64,000 bases of DNA from positions 2,445,501-2,509,500 of the forward strand of contig NC_014365.1 in assembly GCF_000143965.1 (NCBI RefSeq). The letters run 5' to 3'. Numbering within the stretch: position 1 is the first letter of the stretch; each line of letters opens with the position of its first letter. Both the position numbers and the translations under genes were made by a program. This document shows, one piece after another, positions 7,631 through 46,430 of the stretch. The stretch comes from Desulfarculus baarsii DSM 2075. GTDB lineage: Bacteria; Desulfobacterota; Desulfarculia; Desulfarculales; Desulfarculaceae. Under the pieces are notes generated by a model. It was given only the letters and a program-made list of their open reading frames with translations. It was not told where the DNA came from and did not search any database.

Positions 7631-7801
7631 ATGAAGCAAACGCGTCATTTCATCGTCTGCCCCAAGCGCTCTGGCCAACACCGCATCAGCGTCGAGTTGT
7701 GCCCGGCCTGCAAACACGCCCGCCGTTGCCCGGCCTGGGCCAGCTATCGCTGCCCGCCGTTGTTCGCCGGCCTGTTCGACAAACCCCAGCCACAAAAATA
7801 G
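7631..7801 (+). CDS. Small cysteine-rich (zinc-ribbon-like) protein
   Basis: A 56-aa reading frame below usual gene-finder limits. It begins MKQTRHFIVCPKRSGQHR and contains VELCPACKHARRCPAW followed by a further SYRCPP, giving five Cys in CP and CPxC contexts. That pattern suggests one structural zinc site. There is only a weak ribosome site (TAGGG) before the ATG. It lies directly after the tandem repeats at 7481-7606 and converges on the HAD hydrolase gene, with seven bases between stops. Coding status rests on the coherent Cys pattern and an unbroken frame to a natural stop; transcription could be limited by the terminators just upstream unless it has its own promoter. Confidence 0.5.
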   Translation: MKQTRHFIVCPKRSGQHRISVELCPACKHARRCPAWASYRCPPLFAGLFDKPQPQK

Positions 7802-7809
7802 CCGCGGCC

Positions 7810-8454
7810 TCAGCCCAAACCCAACAGCGGCGGGATCTCGGCCATGGCCTCGGCGTGGGCCCAGGCCCGCAAGGTTCTGTCGCGGAAGGCGACCATGGCC
7901 ACGCCCGCGTCCAGGCATAACGCCTCGTCCACGCTGGAGTCGCCCACGTAGACCACCTGGCCGCGCGGCAAGGCCAGGCGCTCCAGGGTGTAGTCCATGA
8001 AGCGGGCGTCGGGCTTGGCCACGCCGGCGGTGGTGGGGGTGACCACCAGCTCGAAGTAATCGCTGAGGCGCAGCTCGTCCAGGGCCAACCTGGCGCTGGA
8101 GATGCGGTTGGTGGCCACGGCCAGGCGAAAACGGCGGCCCAGGGCTTGCAACGTCTCGTGCACGCCGGGAAACAGCTTGAGCCTGGCCACGAAACTTTGA
8201 ATGTCCAGGTTGCGGCAAAATTCCAGGGCTTTTTTGAACTGGGGCCCCTCGCCGACCAGGGCCCGCAACGCGCCGTGGACGCTCTCGCGGTGGACCACGC
8301 CCTTGAGGTGCTCGGGCACCGGCGGGTGACCCAGGCTGGCCATGATGTGGTCGTAAAAGGCGACGTTGTATTCGAACGAATCGAACAACACGCCGTCCAG
8401 GTCAAAAATCACCGCGGCCAGACGCGCGAGGTCTGGCGAGGTCGCTTGAGGCAT
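7810..8454 (-). CDS. HAD-superfamily hydrolase (phosphoglycolate-phosphatase-like)
   Basis: A 214-aa cytosolic phosphatase. The four HAD motifs are in order: motif I AVIFDLDGVLFDSF with the nucleophile Asp, motif II VATNRISSAR, motif III Lys in GVAKPDARF, and motif IV VYVGDSSVDEAL. A helical C1-type cap lies between motifs I and II (residues about 25-90), as in beta-phosphoglucomutase and Gph-like enzymes. The substrate is probably a small phosphorylated sugar or glycolate, but the cap residues do not decide it. It is the last leftward gene before the qrc terminator and seems to be its own transcription unit. Confidence 0.9.
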   Translation of the reverse strand: MPQATSPDLARLAAVIFDLDGVLFDSFEYNVAFYDHIMASLGHPPVPEHLKGVVHRESVHGALRALVGEGPQFKKALEFCRNLDIQSFVARLKLFPGVHETLQALGRRFRLAVATNRISSARLALDELRLSDYFELVVTPTTAGVAKPDARFMDYTLERLALPRGQVVYVGDSSVDEALCLDAGVAMVAFRDRTLRAWAHAEAMAEIPPLLGLG

Positions 8455-8466
8455 GGGCGGTCTCTC

Positions 8467-8500
8467 AAAAAAGCGGCGGAGCCCCTGGAGGCCCCGCCGC
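8467..8500 (-). terminator. Rho-independent terminator of the qrc operon
   Basis: On the minus strand GCGGCGGGGCC pairs with GGCTCCGCCGC across a six-base loop and is followed by six T. It lies between the last small gene of the qrc operon (stop at 8532) and the HAD start (8454), so it separates the two units. Confidence 0.88.
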
Positions 8501-8531
8501 GGTTTACAGCGATTTCACACAACCTGGGGGC

Positions 8532-8723
8532 TCAGTGGGCCTCACCGTGGGCGTGGTCGTCGTCGTCGTGTTCGCCATGGACGTGACCCGAGGCCAAGTC
8601 CTTGCCGGTCTTGAAAAAGACGCCGGCCAGGGTCAGGCCGATGACGGTCAGCGCGCCATAGAACAGGCCGAAGAAGATGAAGTGCCCGATATCCCAATGC
8701 CATTCAAACGCGAAGGGGAACAT
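8532..8723 (-). CDS. Small single-helix membrane protein with His/Asp-rich tail, last gene of qrc operon
   Basis: A 63-aa protein. Residues 1-10 are aromatic (MFPFAFEWHW), a hydrophobic helix follows (FIFFGLFYGALTVIGLTLAGVFF), and the last 20 residues hold about six His and many Asp/Glu (GHVHGEHDDDDHAHGEAH). The tail looks able to bind divalent metal. It starts 12 bp after the qrcD stop, with GGAGG in the gap, and is the final gene before a strong terminator, so it is co-transcribed with Qrc. The characterised Desulfovibrio Qrc complex has four subunits; this one could be an extra small subunit, an assembly factor or a metal chaperone. That is inference from position only. Confidence 0.7.
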   Translation of the reverse strand: MFPFAFEWHWDIGHFIFFGLFYGALTVIGLTLAGVFFKTGKDLASGHVHGEHDDDDHAHGEAH

Positions 8724-8735
8724 GGTTTCTCCTCC

Positions 8736-9968
8736 CTAGCCCTTGGTTAGTTCGGCTTCCTTGGGGAAAATCGGCAGATACCGATACGCCAAGGAATAGA
8801 CCAGGAAGCCGTAGCCGATGATCAGCAGACCCACGGCCACTTCCGGCCAAGTCGGCATGTAGGCCAAGAATTTCTCGAAGGGCAGCACCGGGATGGCCAA
8901 GCTCTGGACGGTGAACACGAAGCGGTTGAGCACCGCGCCGGTGCAGTTGAGCAGCATGGCCAAAAACAGCAGGCCGTAGCTCTGGCGGACCCTGGGCATG
9001 AGCAGCATGATCGCCGGCAACACGCCGCAGACGCCGAGTTCGGCCCACAGCAGCCATTCGCCGTATGGCGCCTGGTACATCACGTCCAGGCTGCCGCCGG
9101 CCTTGGGCACCAAGACCTTGGCCCAATAGTAGGTGTCGGCCAGCTTGAGGACCATGTAGGCGCTCAGCAGCAGGCCGCTGATCTTGCCCATGAGCATTTT
9201 GGTCTTGTGGGGCACCAGCTTGCGGCCGCTGACCTTCTCGGTGATCATCACGCACAGGGTGGTGAACGACGGTCCGGCGGCGATGGCGCTGAGGATGAAC
9301 AGGAAGAACGTCCAGGGCCAGATCATGAAGCCGTCGCGGTAGTCGAAGGGCCGGGCGTAGAGCACGCCGAACATGCCGCCCAGCGAGCCCTGATGGAAGA
9401 AGCTCAGGAACGTGCCCGTGCCGGCGAAGACGATCATGATCCGGTGCAGGTTGTGGGCGAAGGTGCCGATGGCCGGAACCTTGACCATCTGGCGGTTTTC
9501 CAGCACCGAAGGCAGCAGTTCGATGATCAGCACGATGGCGTAGGTGGTGATGCAGAACATGACCTCGGTGAGCATGGAGTGCACGTTGGCGTGCCAGAAA
9601 CCGAACCAACCGCGGATGGGCTGGCCGATGTCGATGCCCAGCATCATGATCGCGCCGGTGTAGCAGATGAAGCCGATGAGCACGGCCACGTTGACGATGT
9701 TCTTCAGCTCCTTGATCTTGAGGATATAGCTCAGGAAGCTGGTGAAGAACGCGCCCGCGCCCAAGGCGATCACCGCCAGGTCTACGACGATCCACAGACC
9801 AAAGGCGTAGTAGTCGTTCATGCCCGTCTGGTTCAGACCAAAGATCAGGCACATGAACGCGCCGATGGCGAAGAACTGCAAAATCCCGAGGCAGATCAGC
9901 ACCCAGAAGACAAACAACGCGGGATGCCCACGGGTTACGCCCTTTGGCCAGAATCTGGAATCATACAT
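8736..9968 (-). CDS. qrcD: Qrc menaquinone reductase, integral membrane subunit QrcD (NrfD family)
   Basis: A 410-aa NrfD/PsrC-family membrane protein with about ten predicted helices (for example HPALFVFWVLICLGILQFFAI, DLAVIALGAGAFFTSFLSYIL, VAVLIGFICYTGAIMMLGID). The family carries the quinone site and a proton path but no haem; in Qrc this subunit reduces menaquinone with electrons delivered through QrcA, QrcB and QrcC. Charged residues inside helices (GIDIGQPIRGW, MIIELLPSVLENRQ) fit the NrfD pattern. It is the fourth gene of qrcABCD, 38 bp after qrcC, with GGTTACC before ATG. Length and order match the Qrc complex of sulfate reducers rather than polysulfide or nitrite reductases, which lack this QrcA/QrcB pairing. 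Confidence 0.92.
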   Translation of the reverse strand: MYDSRFWPKGVTRGHPALFVFWVLICLGILQFFAIGAFMCLIFGLNQTGMNDYYAFGLWIVVDLAVIALGAGAFFTSFLSYILKIKELKNIVNVAVLIGFICYTGAIMMLGIDIGQPIRGWFGFWHANVHSMLTEVMFCITTYAIVLIIELLPSVLENRQMVKVPAIGTFAHNLHRIMIVFAGTGTFLSFFHQGSLGGMFGVLYARPFDYRDGFMIWPWTFFLFILSAIAAGPSFTTLCVMITEKVSGRKLVPHKTKMLMGKISGLLLSAYMVLKLADTYYWAKVLVPKAGGSLDVMYQAPYGEWLLWAELGVCGVLPAIMLLMPRVRQSYGLLFLAMLLNCTGAVLNRFVFTVQSLAIPVLPFEKFLAYMPTWPEVAVGLLIIGYGFLVYSLAYRYLPIFPKEAELTKG

Positions 9969-10006
9969 GGGTAACCTCGCTAACTTTCAAGAAACAACCC
10001 GTGGCC

Positions 10007-10876
10007 CTAGCCCTGCTGGCCGGCCACGGCCCGTTTGAAGTCCTCGTCCGAGACAAAGTTGTCGGCCAAACGACGGACCCACTCACGTTTGGTGGCGTAG
10101 AACACCTTGGTGTTGGTGCCCAGCCGCTCCAGCAGCCGGAAAACCATGTGACCGTCTTGCTGATACCTGGCGATGGCCTGCGCGACCTTGTGGTCGGGGT
10201 TGAGCAGGTCGCCGAAGATGATGGCCCCCGACGGGCAGGCCTCGGTGCAGGCGGTCTGGTAGTCGGCCTCGGCCATGTCCTCGCCGGTCATGAACGACTT
10301 GTTGCGGGCCTGTTGGTAACGATGGAAGCAGAAGGTGCATTTTTCGACGACGCCGCGCATGCGCGGAGACACGAACGGACTGAGGGCGCGTTCGGAGCCC
10401 TTGGGCCACGGCACGTCGAACCAGTTGAAGTAACGGGCGTGGTACGGGCAAGCCGCCACGCAGTACCGGCAACCGATGCAGCGGGTGATGATCTGGCTGA
10501 CGATGCCGGTCTTTTCGTCGTAGTCGGTGGCCGTGGCCGGGCAGACCGAGACGCAGGGCGTGTGGCTTTCGTGGGCGTCGGGGTCTTCGAAGAAGAAGCC
10601 GTCCTTGTAGCTGCCGGGCTTGCCGCCCTGGCAGTGCTGACACGGCCGGGGGAAGAAGGCCACCTCGGTGCCCGGGAAGCTCTGGCCGTTGTCGATCTGG
10701 TAGACCCGCAGCCAGGTTATGGAACGGACCTTGTCGGTCTCGTCGGCCAGCACGCCGCTGTTGTTTTCGGACATGCAGGCCACCGAGCAGGCCCCGCAGC
10801 CGGTGCACTTGTCCACGTCGATGAGCATGCCGAAGCGTTGCTCATCGGTATTGTAGAGCTTTTTCAGATCATACAT
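10007..10876 (-). CDS. qrcC: Qrc menaquinone reductase, iron-sulfur subunit QrcC
   Basis: A 289-aa periplasm-facing ferredoxin-type protein that relays electrons from QrcB/QrcA to QrcD. Cys motifs are abundant: DKCTGCGACSVACMSENN, PCQHCQGG, CVSVCPATATDY, RCIGCRYCVAACPYHARYFNW, CTFCFHRY and CTEACPSGAI, which fit three to four iron-sulfur clusters as in PsrB/NrfC-type subunits. No Tat signal is present, so it presumably travels with Tat-exported QrcB. Its ATG overlaps the qrcB stop by eight bases (translational coupling) and qrcD follows 38 bp later. Confidence 0.93.
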   Translation of the reverse strand: MYDLKKLYNTDEQRFGMLIDVDKCTGCGACSVACMSENNSGVLADETDKVRSITWLRVYQIDNGQSFPGTEVAFFPRPCQHCQGGKPGSYKDGFFFEDPDAHESHTPCVSVCPATATDYDEKTGIVSQIITRCIGCRYCVAACPYHARYFNWFDVPWPKGSERALSPFVSPRMRGVVEKCTFCFHRYQQARNKSFMTGEDMAEADYQTACTEACPSGAIIFGDLLNPDHKVAQAIARYQQDGHMVFRLLERLGTNTKVFYATKREWVRRLADNFVSDEDFKRAVAGQQG

Positions 10877-13010
10877 GGCTCACCCCCCCGATATTTCTCA
10901 GAGAGACCCGGGTCAGGCTCCAGTTGGGCAATCCGCTGAGGGGATCGCTCTCGACATTGACCGCGCGGTTGAAGTTGTCGCCCTTGCCGCCGATGAACTC
11001 GCCCAAGGCGGTGTGGCCCAGGCCCACCGGCACGAAGACCATGCCCGGTTGCGCGCCGGCGAACAAATGCACCGTGGCGTTGACGCCGCCGTGAGCGCCC
11101 ATCAGCTCCACGCGGCTACCCTCGGCCAGATGCATCTCCTTGGCAGTCTCGGGGTTGATCTCCACCACCAACTGGTCTTTGTGGGCCAGGGTGGCGTCGG
11201 TCAGGATTTTGATCATGTAGGGCGTGATCGGATCGCGGCCCCAGGTGGTGCGCAGCGAGGGGATGGCCTGCATGATCAGGCCGTGGCCATGACCGTGGGC
11301 CAGGGCCGCGGGCTCACGCCAATCCAGCCCGGCCAGATTGACGTTGGCCGCGCCGCCGTAGCTGGGTTTGTCCTCGGCCCAGAAGCCTTTGTTCTGGGCC
11401 AGTTCCTCGAAGCTGCCCAGGCCCGCCGCGCGGGTCTTGAGGGCCTCGAAGACGCTCTGCTGAGGCAGGGCCTGGGCCATCTGCCCGCCCATGGCCTTGG
11501 CCAGGGTCAGGAAGATGTCGCCGGTGGCCTTGGCCAGGGGCTCGCCGTTGATCAGCGGACGATGCAGGCCATAGAAGCCGGTGGCGCAGCCAAACGGCGT
11601 GGGGACGTCGCCCCAGCACTCCAGGAAGTGGGCGGCCGGCAAGACCAGGTCGGCCACGGCGGCGCTTTCGTCCAGATAAGGCGTGAGCGCCACCACGAAG
11701 GGCGTTTTGCGGGCCAGGCGCTCGACCAAAACGGCCTGGGGGCCGTTGAAGACCGGGTTGCCGCCGGCCAGGATCAAAGCGGCCAGGCTGTAAGGCTTGG
11801 CGCGCAGGGCGTTGACGGTGAGTGTATAGGGATCGTGGTCGCCAGCGGCCAGGGCCGGTTGGGTCGGGGTGGGCACGGCCGCGCCCAGGGGGGCCAACGG
11901 CAGAGCCTTGCGGGCGACGAGGCCGCCGGGTTTGCCCAGCTTGCCGGCCACGGCGTTGAGGGCCAGGACGGCCAGGAAGTCCTGCATGGCGCCAGGGCCG
12001 CCTTCGGGGCCAGGGCCACAGATGGCCACGCCGCTGTTGCTGGCGGCCAAGGCCAGGGCCACTTCCTTGATAGTGGCCGCGTCCACGCCGGTGTGCTCGG
12101 CCACGGCCTCGGGGGCGAATTTGGCGTCGGCCAGGCCGCCCGCGCTGACGGCGCTCTTACCGGCGGCGACGATGGCGTGGGCCATGGCCAGGGCCAGCAG
12201 GCCCTCGGTTCCGGGCTTGCAGGCCAGCCATTTGTCGGCCTGGCTGGCGGTGACCGAAGCGCGGGTGTCGACCTGGACCAGGGTGGTCTTGCCTTCCTCA
12301 CGCCACTTGGCGAAGGCCGCGCGCACGGCCACCGGCGAGCCCCAGCCCTCCAGCAACGGCGTGCCGAAGCTGACGACGTAGTCGGAGTTGGCCAGGTCGA
12401 AGCCCAGGTTTTCCTCGCCAAAAAGCCGCTTGCCGGCCAGGGCCAGGGTCTGTTGGGCCGTGGGCAGGAAAGCCAGGTTGGGCGAACCATAGGCGGTCAT
12501 GAAGCGACCGAGGATCTCGGAGGTCACGTCGCCGGAGGCCCCGGCCAGACAGGCCACGCGGTGGGCCTGGCCGCCCTCGGCCAGCTTGCCCAGGCGCTCG
12601 GCCAGAAGCTTCAGGGCGTCTTCCCAGCTCAAGCGGGTGAACACGCCGGTCTGGCGATTGCGCAGCATCGGCTGCTGCACGCGGGTCTCGTGATTGTAGA
12701 GCAACTGCAAGGCCGAGGCGTCGGCCGGAATCAGGCCTTCGCCCAGCGGGCTGGCCGTGGCGCCTTCCAGGCGGATCAGGCGCTCGCCCTGCATGCGGCC
12801 CTGTATGACGCGGGCCTGCAAGACCGTCCCCGTGGAGGGATTGACCGTGCTGGCAAAGGCCAACGCGCCGTCTTCCGGCACCGGAACCCAGTTCCAGTTC
12901 TGGGTCCAGATGGCCGTGTCGTCCATCAGTTTCCAAACGAGCGGGCTGAAGTGTATGCCGATCACTCCGCCCACCACGAACTTGACAAAGGATCGTCTAT
13001 CCAAGGTCAT
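10869..13010 (-). CDS. qrcB: Qrc menaquinone reductase, molybdopterin-oxidoreductase-like subunit QrcB
   Basis: A 713-aa protein of the molybdopterin oxidoreductase superfamily. It begins MTLDRRSFVKFVVGGVIG, a clear twin-arginine signal with no signal-peptidase site. The large-subunit fold is visible (LSWEDALKLLAERLGKLAEG, CLAGASGDVTSEILGRFM, a C-terminal MoCoBD region VEINPETAKEMHLAEGSRVEL). However, the N-terminal Cys motif that holds a [4Fe-4S] cluster in true molybdoenzymes is absent, in line with reports that QrcB lacks cofactors and is structural. I chose the ATG at 13010; upstream in-frame residues are Arg-rich and unconserved. It lies 26 bp after qrcA. Confidence 0.94.
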   Translation of the reverse strand: MTLDRRSFVKFVVGGVIGIHFSPLVWKLMDDTAIWTQNWNWVPVPEDGALAFASTVNPSTGTVLQARVIQGRMQGERLIRLEGATASPLGEGLIPADASALQLLYNHETRVQQPMLRNRQTGVFTRLSWEDALKLLAERLGKLAEGGQAHRVACLAGASGDVTSEILGRFMTAYGSPNLAFLPTAQQTLALAGKRLFGEENLGFDLANSDYVVSFGTPLLEGWGSPVAVRAAFAKWREEGKTTLVQVDTRASVTASQADKWLACKPGTEGLLALAMAHAIVAAGKSAVSAGGLADAKFAPEAVAEHTGVDAATIKEVALALAASNSGVAICGPGPEGGPGAMQDFLAVLALNAVAGKLGKPGGLVARKALPLAPLGAAVPTPTQPALAAGDHDPYTLTVNALRAKPYSLAALILAGGNPVFNGPQAVLVERLARKTPFVVALTPYLDESAAVADLVLPAAHFLECWGDVPTPFGCATGFYGLHRPLINGEPLAKATGDIFLTLAKAMGGQMAQALPQQSVFEALKTRAAGLGSFEELAQNKGFWAEDKPSYGGAANVNLAGLDWREPAALAHGHGHGLIMQAIPSLRTTWGRDPITPYMIKILTDATLAHKDQLVVEINPETAKEMHLAEGSRVELMGAHGGVNATVHLFAGAQPGMVFVPVGLGHTALGEFIGGKGDNFNRAVNVESDPLSGLPNWSLTRVSLRNIGGVSHV

Positions 13011-13036
13011 CGGGCTTTCTCCCAGATCCGAACCGC

Positions 13037-13669
13037 CTACTTGTGGCAGACGAAGCAGGCGTCGCGCACGCCGTTTTCGCGGTGACACGCGGCGCAATCG
13101 TCCATCTTCATGCGCTCCGGCGGCCCGCCCAGCCCAAGCAGGCTGCGGCCCCAGATGTCACGGCTGTAGCCGGTGAGGCGGTTGTATTCATAGGGACGGA
13201 GGTTGTCGGTTTCGCCGTGCGTGCCGTGGCAGGTGGCGCACTCCAACTCGGCGTTCTTCACGTGGGCCACGTGGGAGAAGAACACGCAGTCGGGCTGACC
13301 GGAATAGACATCCCAGGCAATCGGTTTGCCTTTGGCGATGTATTCCTCGGCCAGAATCCTTTCCGCCTCACGGTGCTTGGGGTTTTCGATGTTGTCGCCC
13401 ATGGCTTCCTCGGAGTGGCACTCTTGGCAGTTGGCCACCGCGGGGATGCCCGTGAACGAACCGTCCTCCCGGAAGGTGTGACAGCTCGCACAGCCGTCGC
13501 TCACCTGCTCCATGTGCACTTTGTGCGAAAAGTCCATCGGCTGCGTCTTTTCGGCGTAGAGAATCGTGGGCGTCAGCCAAAAACCGAAGGCCGACGCCAA
13601 GACGATCCCCAGGACGAAAAACAGCCAATCCGGGGGGGACTTCTTCTGTCCTTGCTCCTGCTTAGACAT
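13037..13669 (-). CDS. qrcA: Qrc menaquinone reductase, multihaem cytochrome c subunit QrcA
   Basis: A 210-aa cytochrome anchored by an uncleaved N-terminal helix (DWLFFVLGIVLASAFGFWLTP), with the rest in the periplasm. Five CXXCH haem sites are visible: CASCH, CQECH, CATCH, CAACH and CFVCH, with FSHKVH and FSHVAH segments supplying distal His ligands. The family accepts electrons from the periplasmic type I cytochrome c3 and passes them to QrcC/QrcD. Desulfovibrio QrcA is, from memory, described as hexahaem, so this copy may have one fewer canonical site. It is the first gene of the leftward qrc operon; the promoter must lie in 13670-13905, where no strong consensus could be picked. Confidence 0.93.
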   Translation of the reverse strand: MSKQEQGQKKSPPDWLFFVLGIVLASAFGFWLTPTILYAEKTQPMDFSHKVHMEQVSDGCASCHTFREDGSFTGIPAVANCQECHSEEAMGDNIENPKHREAERILAEEYIAKGKPIAWDVYSGQPDCVFFSHVAHVKNAELECATCHGTHGETDNLRPYEYNRLTGYSRDIWGRSLLGLGGPPERMKMDDCAACHRENGVRDACFVCHK

Positions 13670-13905
13670 AGAAACTTTGCCTCTGTTTGCTTGTTAGGTG
13701 ACGCTTCAGCCGGAAGCAGTTACACCGCAGCCGTGCCGCTGCATGCGACAGCCACGGTCACCCAAGATGTGCTTAAAAGCCCTCGCGCGGCGCGGCCCGG
13801 AGTGACGCGAACCTACCACGTCTCCCAAAACCCGTACCTCGTGAAAGCTGGCGCAGCTTAGCAGCAGTTACGGTGGCGTGTCAACCAGCAAGCACGCATG
13901 GCGCT

Positions 13906-14355
13906 TCAATTTTGCCACCTTTGACGGAGATTGATGGCCCAGGCCTTTTCGATGACGGCCAAGGTGTCCGGGGTCAGGGCCAGCGCGGCCATTTCGTCCA
14001 TGGTCGCCCAGCGGGCCTCGGCGGCGTCATCGCCGGCGACGGGCTCTTGCCGCGCGGCCTGGCAGAGGTAATCCAGCAGCACGTAATGATACTCCACCCG
14101 GCCCTGGCCATCGCGCGAGAGTCGCTCGAAGACCTCCACCAACGGGCCCACCCTCACCCGCACGCCCGTCTCCTCCAGCACCTCGCGGGCGCAGGCCGCC
14201 GCCAGGCCCTCGCCCAGCTCCACCGCCCCGCCCGGCAACGACCACAGGCCCTTGGAAGGCTCGCGGCCCCGTTTGACCAAAAGCACCTCCTCGCCGCAAA
14301 ACACGATGCCCGAGACGCCCACCACCGGTCTGTCGGGATATCTTCTGCCCACGCG
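13906..14355 (-). CDS. NUDIX hydrolase
   Basis: A 149-aa pyrophosphohydrolase. The NUDIX box is complete: GGAVELGEGLAAACAREVLEETGV fits GX5EX7REUXEEXGU. The upstream strand VVGVSGIVFCGEEVLLVKRG and the tail aromatic segment are standard for the MutT/ADP-ribose-pyrophosphatase-like clan. The substrate is not decidable. I preferred the GTG at 14355 because GGGAGGGG lies five bases upstream; the further N-terminal extension to 14412 is Lys/Arg-rich. It is divergent from the small zinc protein at 14504. Confidence 0.88.
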   Translation of the reverse strand, partial: RVGRRYPDRPVVGVSGIVFCGEEVLLVKRGREPSKGLWSLPGGAVELGEGLAAACAREVLEETGVRVRVGPLVEVFERLSRDGQGRVEYHYVLLDYLCQAARQEPVAGDDAAEARWATMDEMAALALTPDTLAVIEKAWAINLRQRWQN

Positions 14356-14503
14356 CGCCCCTCCCGCCGGCCTTTTTCGTGGCCGGCGTTTGCGTTTTTG
14401 TGAAGGCAGCATTATTGAAAAGAGAGGACAATAGGTCAAGCAAAGCTTGCCGCCTTTGACGGCCCGTGACAAAATGCGCCCAGCAAGCCAAGGATTTTCG
14501 CCG

Positions 14504-14710
14504 ATGAACATGCAGGATTTTTGCCGCAACCACCCGGATCGGCCGGCCACGGCCCACTGCCAGAAGTATGGCTATGGCTATTGCGATGAATGTCTGGAAA
14601 CCGACCCCCACTGCTCGGAGCCCGAGATTTATTGCAAGTTCCGGCCCCAATGCGTGATCAACTTCCAGGCCAAGGAAAACCGACGGGCCGCCAGACAAGC
14701 GGGAGCATGA
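14504..14710 (+). CDS. Small zinc-binding (B-box-like) protein
   Basis: A 68-aa protein. Cys/His spacing in CRNHPDRPATAHCQKYG followed by CDECLET, PHCSEPE and CKFRPQC resembles a B-box or DksA-like zinc finger, with eight Cys and two His available for one or two zinc ions. The N-terminal ATG at 14504 or the one six bases later could be the start; neither has a strong ribosome site. It is four bases before the cupin gene and is likely co-transcribed with it and the methyltransferase. No DNA-binding helix is obvious; a protein-interaction role is possible. Function is unknown. Confidence 0.7.
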   Translation: MNMQDFCRNHPDRPATAHCQKYGYGYCDECLETDPHCSEPEIYCKFRPQCVINFQAKENRRAARQAGA

Positions 14711-14714
14711 ACAC

Positions 14715-15053
14715 ATGAGCGCCAACGACGTCTATTCCGAGTTCATCCGCCAACTGCCCCAGGCCGACGCGCCCCTGGCCGGGGTCGATGTCCGCCTGAT
14801 CAGCGGGCCCACGGCCCAGGCGGCCTTTTTCTTTTTGCCGGCCGGCACGCGCGTGCCGCCGCACAGCCACTGCGCCCAGTGGGGCATCGTCGTCGAGGGC
14901 GAGATCGAGCTGACCATTGGCATGGCCACGCACATCTTCCACCGCGGCGACCGCTATCACATCGCCGACGGCGAGACCCACGCCGCGCTGATCACCAAGG
15001 ATAGCTGGGTCATCGACGTCTTCGCCGACCCCAAGCGCTATGCCGAAAAATGA
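14715..15053 (+). CDS. Cupin-domain protein
   Basis: A 112-aa single-domain cupin. The first cupin motif is visible as PPHSHCAQWGIVVEGEIEL (metal-ligand His residues and Gly), and the second as HRGDRYHIADGETHAAL, so a metal-bound small beta-barrel is expected. Such proteins act in sugar or small-molecule sensing or isomerisation, but nothing decides the ligand. It overlaps the following methyltransferase start by 14 bases, implying translational coupling. Confidence 0.85.
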   Translation: MSANDVYSEFIRQLPQADAPLAGVDVRLISGPTAQAAFFFLPAGTRVPPHSHCAQWGIVVEGEIELTIGMATHIFHRGDRYHIADGETHAALITKDSWVIDVFADPKRYAEK

Positions 15054-35106: not shown

Positions 35107-35183
35107 GTCCTCGTAGCTCAGTAGGATAGAGCGACGGCCTCCTAAGCCGTAGGCCGCCCGTTCGATTCGGGCCGGGGACACCA
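35107..35183 (+). tRNA. tRNA-Arg (CCT)
   Basis: The cloverleaf folds: acceptor GTCCTCG with CGGGGAC, D arm TAGCTCAGTAGGATAGAGC, anticodon stem ACGGC/GCCGT around CTCCTAA giving anticodon CCT, TpsiC arm CCGTTCGATTCGGG, and an encoded CCA end at 35181-35183. The 3' half is the insertion site of the mobile element that follows, and it stays intact. Confidence 0.95.
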
Positions 35184-35186
35184 ACG
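35139..35186. repeat. attL, 48-bp core repeat
   Basis: The sequence starting CTCCTAAGCC and ending CACCAACG lies within the tRNA 3' half and three bases beyond its CCA. An identical copy is at 44967-45014, and the flanks differ beyond both ends. Confidence 0.93.
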
Positions 35187-35187
35187 A

Positions 35188-36381
35188 TTACAAGGGGTTA
35201 GCTTCGGCTGGCCCCTTTTGCATTGGGTCAGGGTGCGTATAGGGTGCGGCGGGGTGCGTGAAAAGGCTGGGCGTAAGGCTGTGATTATCCAGTTTATCCA
35301 CAGCGTTACGGTTGCCGTCCGGGGCCAAGTGACCGTAGGTGTCAACCGTTAAACTGATGCTGCAATGCCCAAGTTGGTCCCTGACGTAGGCCAGACTTTC
35401 GCCGTTTTGAATCAACAAACTGGCGAAGGTATGGCGCAGGTCGTGAATGCGGACACGGCGCAAGCCGGCATACTCAAGGGCCTTGTACCAAATCCGATTG
35501 CGAAAGTGGTAATCGTGGACGGGCTTGCCTTCAGCGCTGAGAAAAACCCTGTCCGGCACCTTTCCCCAGCCTTTGGCCAGGGCCTCGCGTTTGCGCCGCG
35601 CTCGTAGGTCAAGCAGCACGGCGGCAAGCTGGCGACTCATGTCAACCCGCCGCCCCTTGCCCGACTTCGGCGTTTCCATTCGTTCGCGGCTCACGCCGCG
35701 CCGGATCATGATGAAGCCGCCCCGGAAGTCAATATCTCCCCATTCCAGGCCCCGCGCCTCGCCAAGACGCATGCCCGTTCTGGCCAGCGTCAAAATCATG
35801 GGGAACGCATTAGGGAACCTGTCCCTGACCACCTCAAGCAGATGGTCAAGCTCTTGCGTGGTTAGCGGCTCTATGTCGGCTTTGCGGTCCTTGATCCTGA
35901 TAACGCCCCGCCCCATTCGCTGGCCGGGGTTGTGGGCGATGTAGCCGGCTTCAACGGCGCGGGTCATCACGCCCGAGATCACGTTCAGCATGTGCCGCAC
36001 CGTCGAACCAGCCAGGCCAGATTTCCCTTTCTGCAACAGAAAATCCTTGATCATCAAGCGCGTGATTTGGTCCACGGGCTTTGAGCCAAAACGGCGCAAG
36101 ATATGGTTCGCCAACAATCGTTGGTAGTCCTTCAACGTGCTGGCCTTGCAGGTGGCCGGCACGGTCAAGGCAATCCATTCCTTGGCGAGTTCGCCGAACG
36201 TCGGCATGGCCTCATCTTCGACGATGAACTTACCAGACGCCAACGCGGCCTCGATCTTGCGCGCCGCTTCCTTGGCGGCCTTTTTGTCGCCCACCAACTT
36301 TGACTTGCGCTTGCCGTCGTGGTTGACGAAAACCCACCACGCGCCGCTTCCTTTGACCTTTTCTCTGACTGTCACTCCCAT
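35188..36381 (-). CDS. int: Tyrosine recombinase (integrase)
   Basis: A 397-aa phage-type integrase. It begins with an AP2-like/arm-binding segment (GVTVREKVKGSGAWWVFVN), then a core-binding helix domain (FGELAKEWIALTV), then a catalytic domain with R205 (TGMRLGEA), K near 242, H313xxR316 (HDLRHTFASLLIQ), H339 (LGHCSISLT) and the nucleophile Y349 (DTYGHL). All catalytic residues are present. AAGGAGG lies a few bases before the ATG at 36381. Its stop codon falls immediately after attL. It is the last gene of the element's leftward array, separated from the phage-like genes by a repeat-rich stretch. Confidence 0.95.
   Translation of the reverse strand: MGVTVREKVKGSGAWWVFVNHDGKRKSKLVGDKKAAKEAARKIEAALASGKFIVEDEAMPTFGELAKEWIALTVPATCKASTLKDYQRLLANHILRRFGSKPVDQITRLMIKDFLLQKGKSGLAGSTVRHMLNVISGVMTRAVEAGYIAHNPGQRMGRGVIRIKDRKADIEPLTTQELDHLLEVVRDRFPNAFPMILTLARTGMRLGEARGLEWGDIDFRGGFIMIRRGVSRERMETPKSGKGRRVDMSRQLAAVLLDLRARRKREALAKGWGKVPDRVFLSAEGKPVHDYHFRNRIWYKALEYAGLRRVRIHDLRHTFASLLIQNGESLAYVRDQLGHCSISLTVDTYGHLAPDGNRNAVDKLDNHSLTPSLFTHPAAPYTHPDPMQKGPAEANPL
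35192..35219 (+). terminator. Element-borne terminator behind tRNA-Arg
   Basis: AAGGGGTTAGC pairs with GCTGGCCCCTT over a TTCG tetraloop, followed by TTGC. It lies just inside attL and can end the tRNA transcript in place of the chromosomal terminator displaced beyond attR (45017-45054). It also overlaps the integrase 3' end, read on the other strand. Confidence 0.7.
35231..35257 (+). promoter_or_regulatory. Triplet of GGGTGC repeats near attL (candidate integrase arm sites)
   Basis: GGGTGC occurs at 35231, 35242 and 35252 (steps of 11 and 10 bp), 45 bp inside attL and within the 3' end of the integrase gene. The same triplet with the same steps is present near attR (44874-44900). Confidence 0.65.
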
Positions 36382-36474
36382 AGGCCCTCCTTGTTTTGCG
36401 AATCGCCGCCGATATGTCGGCAATTTATTTTACCACGTTTCGGCCGCAAGTTCGTCGCGGGATTGACGGCCAAC

Positions 36475-36561: not shown

Positions 36562-36601
36562 CTCGCCCTGGGCCGCAAGTTCGTCGCGGGATTGACGGCC
36601 G

Positions 36602-36631
36602 ACCGCTTCAGGCAAATTTGCCTGAAGCGGT
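36602..36631. repeat. Perfect 30-bp palindrome, core GCAAATTTGC
   Basis: Arms ACCGCTTCAG and CTGAAGCGGT around the core. It shares TTCAG with the first palindrome but differs further out, where each side changes together with the other. Confidence 0.9.
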
Positions 36632-37004
36632 TTTGCGCCAAGCGCGCCCGGCCCGCTGGTCGCTTGCCTTTCCTTCGCCCTGGCCCTCACCACGTCTTCG
36701 AGTTGCAACGCCAGTTGCGCCCGTTGCATGTCGTTCAGGTTGCGCCGGCCAAGCTGGCCTGGGCCGACTTCCAAATAGCCACCACAAGCCACGATCTTTC
36801 CTCGGCAATGGTTTGACAGCGGCCAAACGCCGATCGTCGCTCTACGTGTCAATTTGGAAGCCTCACAGCATATACTCATGATTAACGTCACCAGTTTTGT
36901 TTAAATGCGGCGGTTGTGGCCCTTGTTTGCCCCATGGAAGCACCAGCCGGGAAAGGGAGGACCACTTGAACGACGCCGCCGCCCGCCGTTGGGAGAATCC
37001 CGGC

Positions 37005-41632: not shown

Positions 41633-42004
41633 CTAACTCTCTTCTGCGATGGGGCACACCGGTCCGTGGTTCTCAGCTCCTGAAGATTTTTCCCCACCGT
41701 TCGCCCACCAGTGCTTGGGGTCCATCGGCCAGCCGGTGGCAGGGTCAACGGCCCGATCATGCTTGCGTCGCCAGCCGCCGCCGTCCTCGCGGTTGGTCTT
41801 TTTGCTGTGGCACGAGTGACAGAGCGGTTGCAAGTTATTGCAATCCCAGGGCATTCCCCCATCGGCAACAGGCTTGATGTGATCGACGTCGGTTGCGGCG
41901 ACGACCTTCCCGGCCCGCCGACACTCCCGGCACAATGGTTCGCTTCGGAGCACCTGAAGCCGCAAGCGCCGCCAGCGAGATGTTGAGTATGGCCAGTCAG
42001 ACAT
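41633..42004 (-). CDS. HNH endonuclease
   Basis: A 123-aa HNH nuclease. The motif is complete: CRECRRAGKVVAATDVDHIKPVADGG then NLQPLCHSCHSKKTNREDGG. Two CxxC pairs bind zinc. HNH proteins next to large terminases in HK97-type phages and satellites are needed for cos cleavage. The ATG at 42004 overlaps the PrimPol stop by one base (TAATG), a coupling typical of compact phage operons. Confidence 0.93.
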   Translation of the reverse strand: MSDWPYSTSRWRRLRLQVLRSEPLCRECRRAGKVVAATDVDHIKPVADGGMPWDCNNLQPLCHSCHSKKTNREDGGGWRRKHDRAVDPATGWPMDPKHWWANGGEKSSGAENHGPVCPIAEES

Positions 42005-43884
42005 TACGCGGCCCTCCCGAGTGTCGCCTCGTACTTCGTGGCGTAGGCGGCCCGCTCGCGGTCGTCCAGTCGCACCCAATCAGATACGGGCTCCAAGCGC
42101 CAGCCGTGGTGTATCACAAAGTGCCGCTCCAGACCGTTTGGGTTGCGGCCGGGGTAGGCTTTGGCTTTGACAATTTTCAGGGCGCACACTGTGCGGCCTC
42201 GGGCGTGAGTTAGCACGTCCAGTGCCATGTAAAGGCGGCTTTTCTCAGCCGTCGCCTCGCCGCCGCGCCCAAAGGTTGCGCCGGTTTTTTTTTGCAGGCA
42301 GACGAATGCAACGCCGTTGCCCAGCGCGTCATAGACGCCCCTAATATCGGAAGCAATCTTGAAGTATTCGCCGTCCCGCTCCTCAAGGTAGTCGACGACG
42401 GTCAACCCGTCGCGGTTGTGGGCGGCGATGGCGTCGTCAAAGCCGCTGGCGAGAGACGCGGCGCGGACGGCTCGCCAATGGTCAAGGGGGTCGCCGAAAG
42501 CCCCAACGCGCTGGCGATACTCTTGTGGCCCCATCTCCGACATGCAATAAAGCAACTCCTGGCGGCCGATGTTGTCGCGCAGGATGTTGAGCGCCAGGGC
42601 CGTTTTTCCTGCATTGGTCTGGCCGGCCAGCACAACGATCGACTTGGGGGGGAGGCTCACCATCTGGTCAAGGCCCAGGGGCAATGCCAGCCCAAATGGC
42701 TGGCCGTCTGTGCTGGCCAGGTCAACGAACTCCAAATGGCTAGCCAAAATATGGAACCGCCCCGCCTGGCGGGGATCTCTCTTAATCTTCTTTTCTTCTA
42801 TAAGGCGTGTCAGGACCATCGACCGGTTTTTTCGGTCGCGCCGATCGACTAGTCCGAACTCCCGGTCAACGTCGGCCGTCGTGAACGAACCTGTTGAATT
42901 TGCTACCCATTCGCGGATTTCAGCCGCAAGGTTTCCGCCGAATCTAACGGAATCACCCCGTCCACGCTGGGCCGTATCCTGTCCACACGTGTCCCCAGGT
43001 GTCCACACGTGTCCACGGGTGTCCACACCTGTCCACACCTGTCCACAGGTGTGGACATTGTCCACATTTCGGGGGTCCCTGATCCCGGCGGCCAGCCCCG
43101 ACGCCACCGTGGCCGCCACTTCGCGCTGGCCGAGTCCCAGGGCCAGGCCGGCCCCGATCAAAGCGGCCCTGACTCCATCCTCGGCCAGCAGGCCGGCCCC
43201 GATCAGCTGGCCGAGGGCGAAGGAAGAATCGTTGATTTGCCGGTTTCTCGCCCCCTGGCCAGCCAGTGCGATTTTTGTCAGTTCATCGGCCAGGGCGTGT
43301 CGCCCGTAGCGGGAACGGGAGTCGCGGCCCTTTTCCCGTTCGCGCAAATTTGCGCGAACGGGGTCTGGCGCAACATCGCCCTGCTTCAGGCTGGCAATCT
43401 GCCTTTCCTTCGCCCTGGCCCTCACCACGTCTTCGAGTTGCGCCGGTAATTCCGGTGGTGCGCAATCCCAGGGGGCGACCAGCCATTCACGGCCTGGCCC
43501 CGGCGGGGCCACGACGTATCCGCCCTCGGCGCGCACGTCCACGGCGGGCATGACGCCCACGGCGTTTTTCATACCCTCGCGGTGGGCAAAGTAGTAATGT
43601 CGCCCCCGTGGCGTGGTGGCAATGGGCATCTCCAGCCCATCGGGCAAAAGGGCCTCAACACGACTAATCGCCTCGGAATTGTCGGCGTCAATGACCAGTA
43701 GGTTGCTAACCTTTCCCGTCACAATACCTACCATCGCGCCGGGTTTGCCAAACCAGTCGGCGAGCGCGCCGGCCTCGGGCCGGCGGGTCTGGTATTCGGC
43801 CCACGGGCGAAGGGGGCGCTTGTCCGCGCCCACGGGGATCGCCGCCCAGCCCAGGCTGGCGTATCTTTGCGCGGCCTCAATCAT
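42004..43884 (-). CDS. PrimPol-helicase replication protein
   Basis: A 626-aa replication initiator. The N-terminal domain is an archaeo-eukaryotic-type PrimPol (YASLGWAAIPVGADKRPLRPW, NLLVIDADNSEAI with catalytic Asp, IATTPRGRHYYF, VDVRAEGGYVVAPPG). The C-terminal domain is a RepA/DnaB-like ATPase with Walker A VVLAGQTNAGKTALAL (near residue 415). The linker region (about 275-310) is encoded by the iteron array at 42979-43066 and by a palindrome near residue 178. Its start overlaps the preceding 47-aa gene by four bases. It probably recognises its own iterons and loads replication at them. Confidence 0.88.
   Translation of the reverse strand: MIEAAQRYASLGWAAIPVGADKRPLRPWAEYQTRRPEAGALADWFGKPGAMVGIVTGKVSNLLVIDADNSEAISRVEALLPDGLEMPIATTPRGRHYYFAHREGMKNAVGVMPAVDVRAEGGYVVAPPGPGREWLVAPWDCAPPELPAQLEDVVRARAKERQIASLKQGDVAPDPVRANLREREKGRDSRSRYGRHALADELTKIALAGQGARNRQINDSSFALGQLIGAGLLAEDGVRAALIGAGLALGLGQREVAATVASGLAAGIRDPRNVDNVHTCGQVWTGVDTRGHVWTPGDTCGQDTAQRGRGDSVRFGGNLAAEIREWVANSTGSFTTADVDREFGLVDRRDRKNRSMVLTRLIEEKKIKRDPRQAGRFHILASHLEFVDLASTDGQPFGLALPLGLDQMVSLPPKSIVVLAGQTNAGKTALALNILRDNIGRQELLYCMSEMGPQEYRQRVGAFGDPLDHWRAVRAASLASGFDDAIAAHNRDGLTVVDYLEERDGEYFKIASDIRGVYDALGNGVAFVCLQKKTGATFGRGGEATAEKSRLYMALDVLTHARGRTVCALKIVKAKAYPGRNPNGLERHFVIHHGWRLEPVSDWVRLDDRERAAYATKYEATLGRAA
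42979..43066. promoter_or_regulatory. 10-bp iteron array with DnaA-box-like sites: candidate replication origin
   Basis: GTCCAC (one copy GTCCCC) repeats at 42981, 42991, 43001, 43011, 43021, 43031 and 43041, exactly 10 bp apart. It is followed by an inverted GTGGAC at 43051 and TTGTCCACA at 43058-43066, which is the DnaA box of high-GC bacteria. Ten is not a multiple of three, so protein coding does not explain the periodicity. It sits in the linker of the PrimPol-helicase gene. Confidence 0.7.
43335..43362. repeat. Perfect 28-bp palindrome, core GCAAATTTGC
   Basis: Arms CCCGTTCGC and GCGAACGGG around the core, inside the PrimPol gene and 6.7 kb from the other three copies. Arms again differ from the others. 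Confidence 0.9.
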
Positions 43885-44084: not shown

Positions 44085-44318
44085 TCATTTTCGGCCCAGC
44101 CCGGCCAGGACTTCGTTGACAATTTTGTCCGTCCGCTGGTGGTCAACCGCGTGGCCGGCCAGCCAAGCATCCAGGGCCTCCCGCTTGATCAACACCGCGC
44201 CGCCAGCCACGCGGCTATGCGGAAGCCCAGCCGCCAGCCAGCTCCGCATGGTGCGCAAGCTAACGTCGGCCAGTTCAGCGGCCGACCTGGCCCGCAGCCA
44301 AGCCCGTTCAGATGCAAG
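44085..44318 (-). CDS. Helix-turn-helix DNA-binding protein (AlpA/excisionase type)
   Basis: A 77-aa protein with one winged helix-turn-helix: SAAELADVSLRTMRSWLAAGLPHSRVAGGAVLIKREALDAWL, the pattern of AlpA/Xis-like proteins that bind att or promoter DNA. GGAGG lies eight bases before the ATG at 44318. It is the second of two such regulators and lies behind an attenuator-like hairpin (44343-44373). Confidence 0.82.
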   Translation of the reverse strand, partial: LASERAWLRARSAAELADVSLRTMRSWLAAGLPHSRVAGGAVLIKREALDAWLAGHAVDHQRTDKIVNEVLAGLGRK

Positions 44319-44342
44319 CATCCTTCGCGCCTCCAAAACAGA

Positions 44343-44373
44343 AAACGCCGCCCGGTTGCCCGAGACGGCGTTT
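44343..44373 (-). terminator. Hairpin/attenuator between the two regulator genes
   Basis: AAACGCCG pairs with CGGCGTTT across a 15-base loop. On the minus strand it is followed by TTTTCTGTTTT. Nineteen bases of its left half (CGCCGCCCGGTTGCCCGAG) are also present at 44793-44811. Confidence 0.65.
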
Positions 44374-44398
44374 CGCAAAAGGTTGTGGTGTCAGGCGG

Positions 44399-44623
44399 TC
44401 AGCGGCCGGTGATGGCCTCGAACTCGCGCATGGCCGCGCCCTTCGTCATGGCCCGCCGGTTGCGCTGGACGAACTCGACCAGCGCGGCGCGCTCGTAGAC
44501 GACGCGCCCGCCCAGGCCGACAAAAGCCGGGCCGCCGCCCCGGCTTCGCCAAGTCGCCAAGGTGGCCGGGCTAAGCCTCAAAACCTCGGCGGCCTCGCCT
44601 TCGGTGAGCAACTCTAGGTCCAC
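44399..44623 (-). CDS. Helix-turn-helix DNA-binding protein (MerR/AlpA-like)
   Basis: A 74-aa protein with one HTH (LTEGEAAEVLRLSPATLATWRSRGGGPAFVGLGGRVVYERAALVEF), the AlpA/phage-excisionase-like class that activates satellite or prophage genes or directs excision. The GTG at 44623 has a perfect AAGGAGG six bases upstream. It is the first gene of the element's leftward array, behind a good promoter. In PICIs the AlpA homologue is the master switch; here that role is inference. Confidence 0.8.
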   Translation of the reverse strand: MDLELLTEGEAAEVLRLSPATLATWRSRGGGPAFVGLGGRVVYERAALVEFVQRNRRAMTKGAAMREFEAITGR

Positions 44624-44716
44624 GGAAAACCTCCTTTTTTGGGCAAAACGCAAAAAGGCCGCAGCATCCGCCACGGCCTCGATCAGTCTCTCGCACACGT
44701 TTTCCAATTGTAGCAA

Positions 44717-44745
44717 AATGTACACTACATATTGTTTGTTGTCAA
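44717..44745 (-). promoter_or_regulatory. Sigma70-type promoter of the element
   Basis: On the minus strand TTGACA (44740-44745), exactly 17 bp, then TACATT (44717-44722), about 95 bases before the first HTH gene. Tandem GAGCGATTGC copies and a GCGAG/CTCGC inverted repeat lie just upstream (44747-44775), suggesting regulator binding. This is the best promoter match in the window. Confidence 0.78.
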
Positions 44746-44873
44746 CGAGCGATTGCGAGCGATTGCGAGTCTCGCAAAAAAGCAAGCGAAAGCGCCGCCC
44801 GGTTGCCCGAGGTGTGAAACGTCACAGCAACATGTTTTGACCATCTGGTGTCGCTATGCAAAGTGTGACATTT

Positions 44874-44966: not shown

Positions 44967-45014
44967 CTCCTAAGCCGTAGGCCGCCCGTTCGATTCGGGC
45001 CGGGGACACCAACG
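44967..45014. repeat. attR, 48-bp core repeat
   Basis: Identical to 35139-35186. It lies 9,828 bp from attL and contains the tRNA-Arg 3' half but not the 5' half. Confidence 0.93.
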
Positions 45015-45218: not shown

Positions 45219-46430
45219 ATGTGCTGATCTAGTAATGACCTGACAGTCGACCACGTAGAGGAAGTGGTCATGCCGCCCTTGGTTGGGGTAGGTTTGTAGT
45301 TGCGAAACTCGAACAAACCTCAACACAGGAGGGCAACATGACCACGGAGAAGAAGGTAGCACGAAGGAAGCTGAGTCTGCTAGAGCTTGCTGGGGAATTG
45401 AGCAACGTCAGCCGGGCCTGCAAACTGATGGGCTACTCGCGGCAGCAGTTTTACGAGATTCGGCGCAATTTCCAGACCTACGGCGCACAGGGCCTTGTGG
45501 ACCGTTTGCCCGGCCCCAAGGGGCCGCATCCCAATCGTGTGGAAGCGGAGGTTGAGGCGGCGATCATGGCTTACAGCCTGGAGTATCCGACCCACGGAGC
45601 GCTTCGCGTGTCGCAGCAATTGGCCCTTCGCGGCGTGCAAGTGAGTTCCGGCGGCGTGCGAGGCGTGTGGAGTCGCCACGAGATGCTCACGCGGCACGAG
45701 CGTCTTTTGCGTCTCGAGCAATCGGTTCGCGCCCAGGACATTCAACTCAGCGACGAGCAGATTCGGGCTTTGGAGCGCTTCAGCCCGGAGTTTCGCGACC
45801 GCCACATCGAGGCCCGGCACACCGGGGCCCTGGTGGCGGTGGACACGTTTTTCGTTGGCGCGCTCAAGGGCGTGGGCAAGGTGTATCTACAATCGGTCAT
45901 CGACTGCCACAGCCGCCACGCCTGGGGTCGCCTGTACACCAGCAAGCTTCCGGTCACGGCGGTGCATGTGCTCAACGAGGAAGTGCTGCCGTGCTTTGAG
46001 GCCCACGACGCGGTGATTGAGACGGTGCTTTCGGACAATGGGCGAGAGTTTTGCGGCCGGCCAGACCAGCATCCGTATGAGCTGTTTCTGCAGCTTGAGG
46101 GGATCGAACACCGCACCACCAGGGTGCGTCGGCCTCAGAGCAATGGCTTCGTGGAACGGCTTCACCGGACGCTCTTGGACGAGCATTTCCGGATCAAGGG
46201 CCGTCAGAAATGGTATGAAACCTTGGATGAGATGCAGGCCGACTTGGATGAGTATCTGCGCCATTACAACCATGAGCGGGCGCACCAGGGCCGGAACATG
46301 AACGGCAGGACGCCGAGTCAGGCTTTCCTGGAGGGCCTGCCCGGGCGTAAGAAGCCCAAGGAAAAGGCGTCCCAAAAGGCCGCCTAAAAATCACCCCGCC
46401 AGGGGCGGCAGTGTCAGGTAAATACTATAT
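45219..46430 (+). mobile_element. IS481-type insertion sequence
   Basis: About 1.2 kb. It is flanked by imperfect 13-bp direct repeats (CTGAATGTTCTGG at 45206-45218, CTGTACATTCTGG at 46431-46443). Imperfect terminal inverted repeats contain ACCTGACA (near 45238 and 46411-46429, 15 of 19 bases alike). It lies within the lipoprotein-sorting gene. End positions are approximate because the outermost bases do not match. Confidence 0.8.
45338..46387 (+). CDS. IS481-family DDE transposase
   Basis: A 349-aa transposase with an N-terminal HTH (GELSNVSRACKLMGYSRQQFYEIRRNF) and a retroviral-integrase-type catalytic core. DDE residues are in LVAVDTFFVG, ETVLSDNGREF and NGFVERLHRTLLDE. AGGAGGG precedes the ATG. 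The frame is intact, so the element could still be mobile. Confidence 0.94.
   Translation: MTTEKKVARRKLSLLELAGELSNVSRACKLMGYSRQQFYEIRRNFQTYGAQGLVDRLPGPKGPHPNRVEAEVEAAIMAYSLEYPTHGALRVSQQLALRGVQVSSGGVRGVWSRHEMLTRHERLLRLEQSVRAQDIQLSDEQIRALERFSPEFRDRHIEARHTGALVAVDTFFVGALKGVGKVYLQSVIDCHSRHAWGRLYTSKLPVTAVHVLNEEVLPCFEAHDAVIETVLSDNGREFCGRPDQHPYELFLQLEGIEHRTTRVRRPQSNGFVERLHRTLLDEHFRIKGRQKWYETLDEMQADLDEYLRHYNHERAHQGRNMNGRTPSQAFLEGLPGRKKPKEKASQKAA

Follow-up and report, generated by a model that had tools for sequence, protein, structure and literature searches.

Replication origins that lie inside the genes of their own initiators are already known from lambda O and from pSK41. In lambdoid phages, oriLambda sits in the middle of gene O, where the iterons bound by the initiator lie beside an AT-rich tract, and additional iterons in gene O lengthen the protein (PMC7466680). 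The pSK41/RepA_N origin is likewise central in rep, where the DNA encodes a linker that the protein can function without (PMC5703833). PICI origins are found 3′ of rep (PMC6092414), in PLE the DNA-binding domain of RepA and the origin covary (PMC8263062), and the minimal replicon of pRN1 is described as requiring sequence both upstream and downstream of the replication operon (PMC4234260).

The window considered here, a stretch of 64,000 bp from the chromosome of Desulfarculus baarsii DSM 2075, contains an element of about 9.8 kb bounded by identical 48-bp direct repeats from tRNA-Arg, and the replication gene of this element carries an array of short phased repeats within its coding sequence. 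We consider, with a probability of roughly three in four, that this array, which occupies the code for a disordered linker in the PrimPol-helicase of the element itself, acts in cis as a binding site for the initiator, most likely as a replication origin. The features needed for the argument are the following.

35139 to 35186, forward strand: left att core, the 3′ part of tRNA-Arg, one 48-bp direct repeat
35188 to 36423, reverse strand: tyrosine integrase of the element (Pfam Phage_integrase, 6.8e-25)
42004 to 43884, reverse strand: gene of 626 aa encoding, in order, PrimPol, a helical domain, linker 2 (with the array), a wHTH and a RecA/DnaB-like helicase (ORF, Pfam, VIA-align)
42748 to 42930, reverse strand: winged-helix domain, aa 319-379, proposed iteron reader (AlphaFold2 secondary structure, residue-352 covariation)
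42774 to 42813, no strand: AT-richest 40 bp of the gene, a weak DNA-unwinding candidate (composition)
42937 to 43062, reverse strand: disordered linker 2, aa 275-316, coinciding with the array (AlphaFold2 pLDDT <50)
42959 to 42966, no strand: degenerate outlying unit CGTCCACG (sequence)
42979 to 43066, no strand: iteron array (sequence, TRF, repeat search, synonymous-shuffle test)
44085 to 44785, reverse strand: two small HTH_17/AlpA-like genes, regulator or excisionase (Pfam HTH_17, phrog_66 excisionase)
44967 to 45014, forward strand: right att core, the identical 48-bp repeat

Between the att repeats, Pfam and PHROG matches identify integrase, HTH, PrimPol, HNH, TerL, capsid-protease and portal genes. 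A cfPICI-like element is defined by an integrase, a regulator, a replication gene and head or packaging genes, without tail or lysis genes, and from its gene content the present element would be either satellite-like or a reduced or degraded prophage. A fragment resembling the linker-1 region of the PrimPol gene (36577-36792; 51% over aa 118-193) sits between the portal and integrase genes, amid repeated sequence.

The 626-aa product has an N-terminal Prim-Pol domain (Pfam, E 3.4e-22) and weak AAA_25 and DnaB_C matches; VIA-align, queried mainly with aa 387-612, relates its C-terminal ATPase (aa 382-606) to RadA, T7 gp4 and G40P at Z about 20. With an N-terminal PrimPol and a C-terminal RecA/DnaB-like ATPase, the protein is thus a PrimPol-helicase. 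In an AlphaFold2 model that draws on 31 family sequences, confidence is low in two stretches, linker 1 (aa 168-188) and linker 2 (aa 275-316), and the codons covered by the array correspond to about aa 273-302, so that the array does lie, as the first-pass annotation had it, in a linker of the element's own replication gene, and one that is disordered in the model. There follows the wHTH, modelled as a helix (319-328), a strand (333-335), a second helix (336-343), the recognition helix (348-363, encoded at 42796-42843) and wing strands (367-379). The linker-1 region of the gene also contains a perfect 28-bp palindrome, CCCGTTCGCGCAAATTTGCGCGAACGGG, at 43335-43362, a stretch which differs in a second copy of the gene by substitutions and gaps.

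The array itself was described correctly at first sight: the sequence and TRF both give seven TGTCC[A/C]C units at exact 10-bp steps, at 42980, 42990 (the variant TGTCCCC), 43000, 43010, 43020, 43030 and 43040, a run spanning 42980-43046, followed by an inverted unit, TGTGGACA, at 43050-43057 and by TTGTCCACA at 43058-43066. The degenerate unit CGTCCACG lies 21 bp, or two turns, from the array, and the second gene copy has such a unit too. TRF ranks this as the top short-period array of the element (score 97 at period 10, 108 at period 30) and detects no comparable second array in the 9.8 kb. A scan of the whole genome, a single contig of 3,655,731 bp, found at least three successive units at two places only, namely the window PrimPol gene and its 95%-identical second copy.

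Three 10-bp steps make 30 bp, and a weak 10-residue repeat, VDT.G.VWT, therefore arises in the protein. This recurrence, visible as the TRF period of 30, is what would be expected if a functional 10-residue linker peptide were the reason for the array, a reading that is nevertheless hardly credible, because the DNA periodicity is greater than the protein needs: the observed value was reached in 0/100 codon shuffles and in 0/1000 synonymous-codon shuffles in which the protein was held fixed. In relatives, moreover, the periods are mostly 10 but also 9, 11 and 12 bp, and the encoded peptides are unrelated. The initial statement that this is no protein repeat thus holds for what shapes the DNA, and needs amending in that a weak peptide repeat does result. 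Taken with the relatives, the shuffle tests identify phased repeats under DNA-level constraint inside a replication gene.

The second PrimPol-helicase copy lies in the same chromosome (G000:C1:1931942-1933813) and has 11 units in one chain, joined by three 9-bp and seven 10-bp steps, with TTGTCCACA occurring three times as 9-bp units. As the two copies are nearly identical outside linker 1 and the array, the array is among the fastest-changing parts of the gene. The surrounding locus (L009, about 7673-14998) keeps the regulator, PrimPol, HNH, TerL and an integrase-like stretch, with no DNA match to the portal and capsid genes of the window. An IS-like rve transposase gene is found just beyond the right att site (45338-46387) and also in L009 (12498-13547), and over 1219 bp the sequence here matches that next to the second PrimPol copy with 100% identity.

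The first-pass annotation had also called TTGTCCACA a DnaA-type box, and the array could on that basis be a cluster of host DnaA boxes, with the element relying on host DnaA and the near-matches serving as further boxes. A single base does indeed separate TTGTCCACA from the classical TTATCCACA box, and most units in turn differ from TTGTCCACA by one base. The boxes near the two dnaA-like genes of the host are, however, TTTTCCACA/TTTTACACA, with no TTGTCCACA in those regions, and relatives use GTTGAA, TCGGACA or TGTAAGCA at the same place, units that do not resemble DnaA boxes and that vary with the gene's own recognition helix. Host DnaA is consequently a very unlikely reader of the array, and the label finds no support; the TTGTCCACA at 43058-43066 is one more unit with T in front, and the second copy repeats TTGTCCACA as 9-bp units.

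A single-protein query against genome contigs returned zero relatives; an alignment query recovered them, with 62 loci in viral contigs and 17 in genomes, to which vir555 and MetMV are added. Conservation in related elements had been set as a test of the origin proposal, and the array passes it in that its position is kept, its unit sequence and period being variable. Many family genes bear arrays phased at 9-12 bp with gene-specific units, TGTCTACA, TGACCACA and GTTGAA among them, located in linker 2, in linker 1, in the wHTH-coding sequence or in DNA beside the gene; in a sizeable minority of members no array was detected by the methods applied. Linker-2 arrays, with periods of 9-12 bp, occur in a grade around the window gene, comprising the second copy, L077 (unit TCGGACA), L086 (TCAAGCA), G020/L140 (TGTAAGCA, 12 bp) and the archaeal virus vir555 (GTTGAA, 9 bp). 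The MetMV array was dropped from this set, as the alignment places it in linker 1.

In a sister clade the arrays lie in linker 1 and also in the part of the gene that encodes the wHTH, over a stretch equivalent to aa 328-348 of the window gene product, often spaced 10-11-10-10-10. Three in-frame units of the wHTH stretch encode matched residues (LST..MST..LST in L148, LSS..LSS..LSS in L091, MTT..MTT..LTT in L085), the intervening units being read in other frames. In the L148 model, whose sole disordered segment is linker 1, the array-coding stretch is well folded (pLDDT about 88-91) and forms the end of helix 1, the strand, helix 2 and the turn, stopping just before the recognition helix. Some members in which no internal linker array is clear carry one directly beside the gene: in L110 it is immediately downstream, with the same unit as the gene's own wHTH stretch, and in L122 it is immediately upstream, with the gene's own unit inverted. 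In L106 (2850-3659) the array, of 11-bp phased GACCAGCAAAC units, is in the preceding gene, before a helicase without a fused PrimPol domain. A 10-bp phased GTGCGCGGTG-type array was also seen in a Desulfarculus-related genome (L146/L070, about 990-1040), some 2.8 kb from a PrimPol-less family helicase.

The motif as such is a poor guide to these sites. TGTCCAC arrays were found at 31 loci across viral contigs, against 7 for a reversed control pattern that is itself partly contained in TGTCCAC-type arrays, and many of the 31 are intergenic or in unrelated genes (one runs antisense to an integrase gene, for example, and another is in a RuvC-like gene), so that the search by itself tells little. 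At six loci (L036, L040, L046, L057, L062 and L063) three phased TGTCCAC units stand beside tRNA-end-like and terminator-like sequence, and these may be integrase arm or regulatory sites rather than origins.

Arrays with a period that is not a multiple of three are present in 14/67 family genes, a set including a few near-duplicates, compared to 1/298 other ORFs drawn from the same contigs (Fisher p 1.9e-10). The raw control count at that threshold was 2/299, each in a gene that directly precedes a family helicase (L106 and L107), and counting both leaves the contrast largely unchanged. Linker 1 and the wHTH stretch have on average 9.74 6-mers in common within a gene versus 2.62 between genes, a mean matched in 0/10,000 permutations, while control regions of the same gene have 2.6-3.7. 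Synonymous shuffling with both protein sequences fixed lowers the mean to 4.3, and 16/43 genes are individually significant at 0.01; the unit common to the two arrays of one gene therefore exceeds what the protein sequences would impose. In 21/43 genes the linker-1 zone, 9% of the gene length, is where the AT-richest 40 bp are found.

These observations bear on whether the repeats could be a neutral minisatellite, the product of functionless slippage where the encoded linker is disordered. The two copies in one genome do differ in unit sequence and copy number, and this linker tolerates change. Slippage of this kind is nonetheless highly improbable as the explanation, since two separated arrays in one gene carry the same gene-specific unit, arrays with 10-11-10-10-10 spacing lie inside the folded wHTH in many genes, and such arrays are rare in other ORFs of the same contigs.

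Which protein might read the units was approached through covariation in 36-37 partly related genes, with units picked by eye. Among the variable columns outside the array-coding stretch, the strongest covariation with unit sequence is that of recognition-helix residue 352 (moderate partial r, 0.37-0.42, after correction for overall identity; 0/500 permutations; both unit orientations), and residue 355 follows more weakly (3/500). Taken as groups, the columns of the recognition helix and of the wing score above the remainder, and a few columns outside the helix (520 and 387) also rank high. A blind orientation rule reshuffles the helix columns below 352, and the claim is for this reason limited to residue 352 and the group-level excess. 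The TG-N4-CA frame of many units is self-reverse-complementary at its ends, which fits a free orientation of the arrays. Together these data are suggestive of the protein's own wHTH as the reader of the units.

We therefore return to the array as a candidate origin, for which the following mechanism is proposed. The wHTH that follows the linker would bind the TGTCCACA/TGTGGACA units, which their 10-bp phasing sets on one side of the double helix, and would load several PrimPol-helicase molecules; these would open the DNA nearby, and the single polypeptide could then unwind and prime, so that replication would start at the array. Several lines of evidence argue for such an origin: the phasing, mostly at 10 bp and above synonymous shuffles, the similar placement of divergent units in the linker-2 relatives, the gene's own unit shared by both arrays in sister-clade genes, the arrays directly beside L110 and L122, the AT-rich linker-1 zone in half of the family, the covariation of residue 352 and of the helix and wing groups, and the rarity of such arrays in other ORFs. 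In the window gene no AT-rich stretch adjoins the array; the AT-richest 40 bp lie about 165 bp away and reach only 62.5% AT (36% for the gene), and a melting region is accordingly not clear there.

Against the origin stands the point that an autoregulation or copy-control site for the same protein would leave an identical sequence signature. The wHTH might repress transcription of its own gene, or limit copy number by handcuffing, with replication starting elsewhere, and all the sequence evidence for a bound site fits this equally. Plasmid iteron arrays often serve control besides initiation, and some family members have two arrays in the gene or one beside it. We regard a purely regulatory array as unlikely, given that the arrays lie hundreds of bp into coding sequence, far from the gene start, that in half of the family the linker-1 arrays have beside them an AT-rich stretch suited to strand opening, and that the element has no comparable second array. 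An origin-type reading is supported at the family level, and the core of the original proposal, initiator-binding iterons or an origin placed within the replication gene much as in lambda O, probably stands, without the part given to DnaA.

The chances appear evenly balanced that the pattern is general, i.e. that a large phage and satellite PrimPol-helicase family carries its own binding sites in its own gene, in the sister clade inside the code for the reader domain, and that unit and recognition helix diversify together. If so, a change of origin specificity must rewrite the site and the amino acids of its reader in one stretch, and co-diversification of unit and helix perhaps allows escape from incompatibility or from origin-directed attack. 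For a satellite-like element, and for a replicase family of phages and archaeal viruses, the locus offers a candidate origin defined by its sequence, and since the varied units come with matching recognition helices, swaps would give a direct handle on origin specificity and on replicon incompatibility.

In the literature searched, with most subscription papers outside it, no description was found of iterons inside PrimPol-helicase genes, nor of this family, its moving array or the overlap of an array with a folded DNA-binding domain. The sister-clade form in particular would be unusual, the same stretch of DNA being both binding site and code for a DNA-binding fold.

Considering how this locus compares with the systems described at the outset, pRN1 ORF904 also has a PrimPol-type replication protein (PMC4234260; PDB 1ro0, 3m1m) and ranks with the best Foldseek matches when the N-terminal part of the L148 model is the query, but its description mentions no internal array (PMC4234260). 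The iterons of PLE differ in being three semi-palindromes of about 30 bp in intergenic DNA (PMC8263062). PICIs are likewise small integrated elements with an integrase, a regulator, a primase-type replication gene and an iteron-type origin linked to that gene (PMC6092414); their origin, however, is immediately 3′ of rep, with two iteron sets flanking an AT-rich region, whereas the window array is internal, TRF finds no array 3′ of the PrimPol gene, and the element has genes of its own for portal, capsid and large terminase. With pSK41 the locus shares the placement of an origin, here a candidate one, in linker-coding DNA of the initiator gene, although the RepA_N initiator works with host primase. 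With lambda O it shares iterons that lie centrally in the gene for the initiator itself. No replication-protein-O match (Pfam, PHROG) was found for the element's genes and no RepA_N domain match in Pfam, so the locus belongs to neither family, though it would work like both. O is, moreover, neither a PrimPol nor a helicase, whereas here priming, unwinding and probably DNA binding are combined in one polypeptide, with units about one helical turn apart that change from element to element and that relatives of the window gene place inside wHTH-coding sequence.
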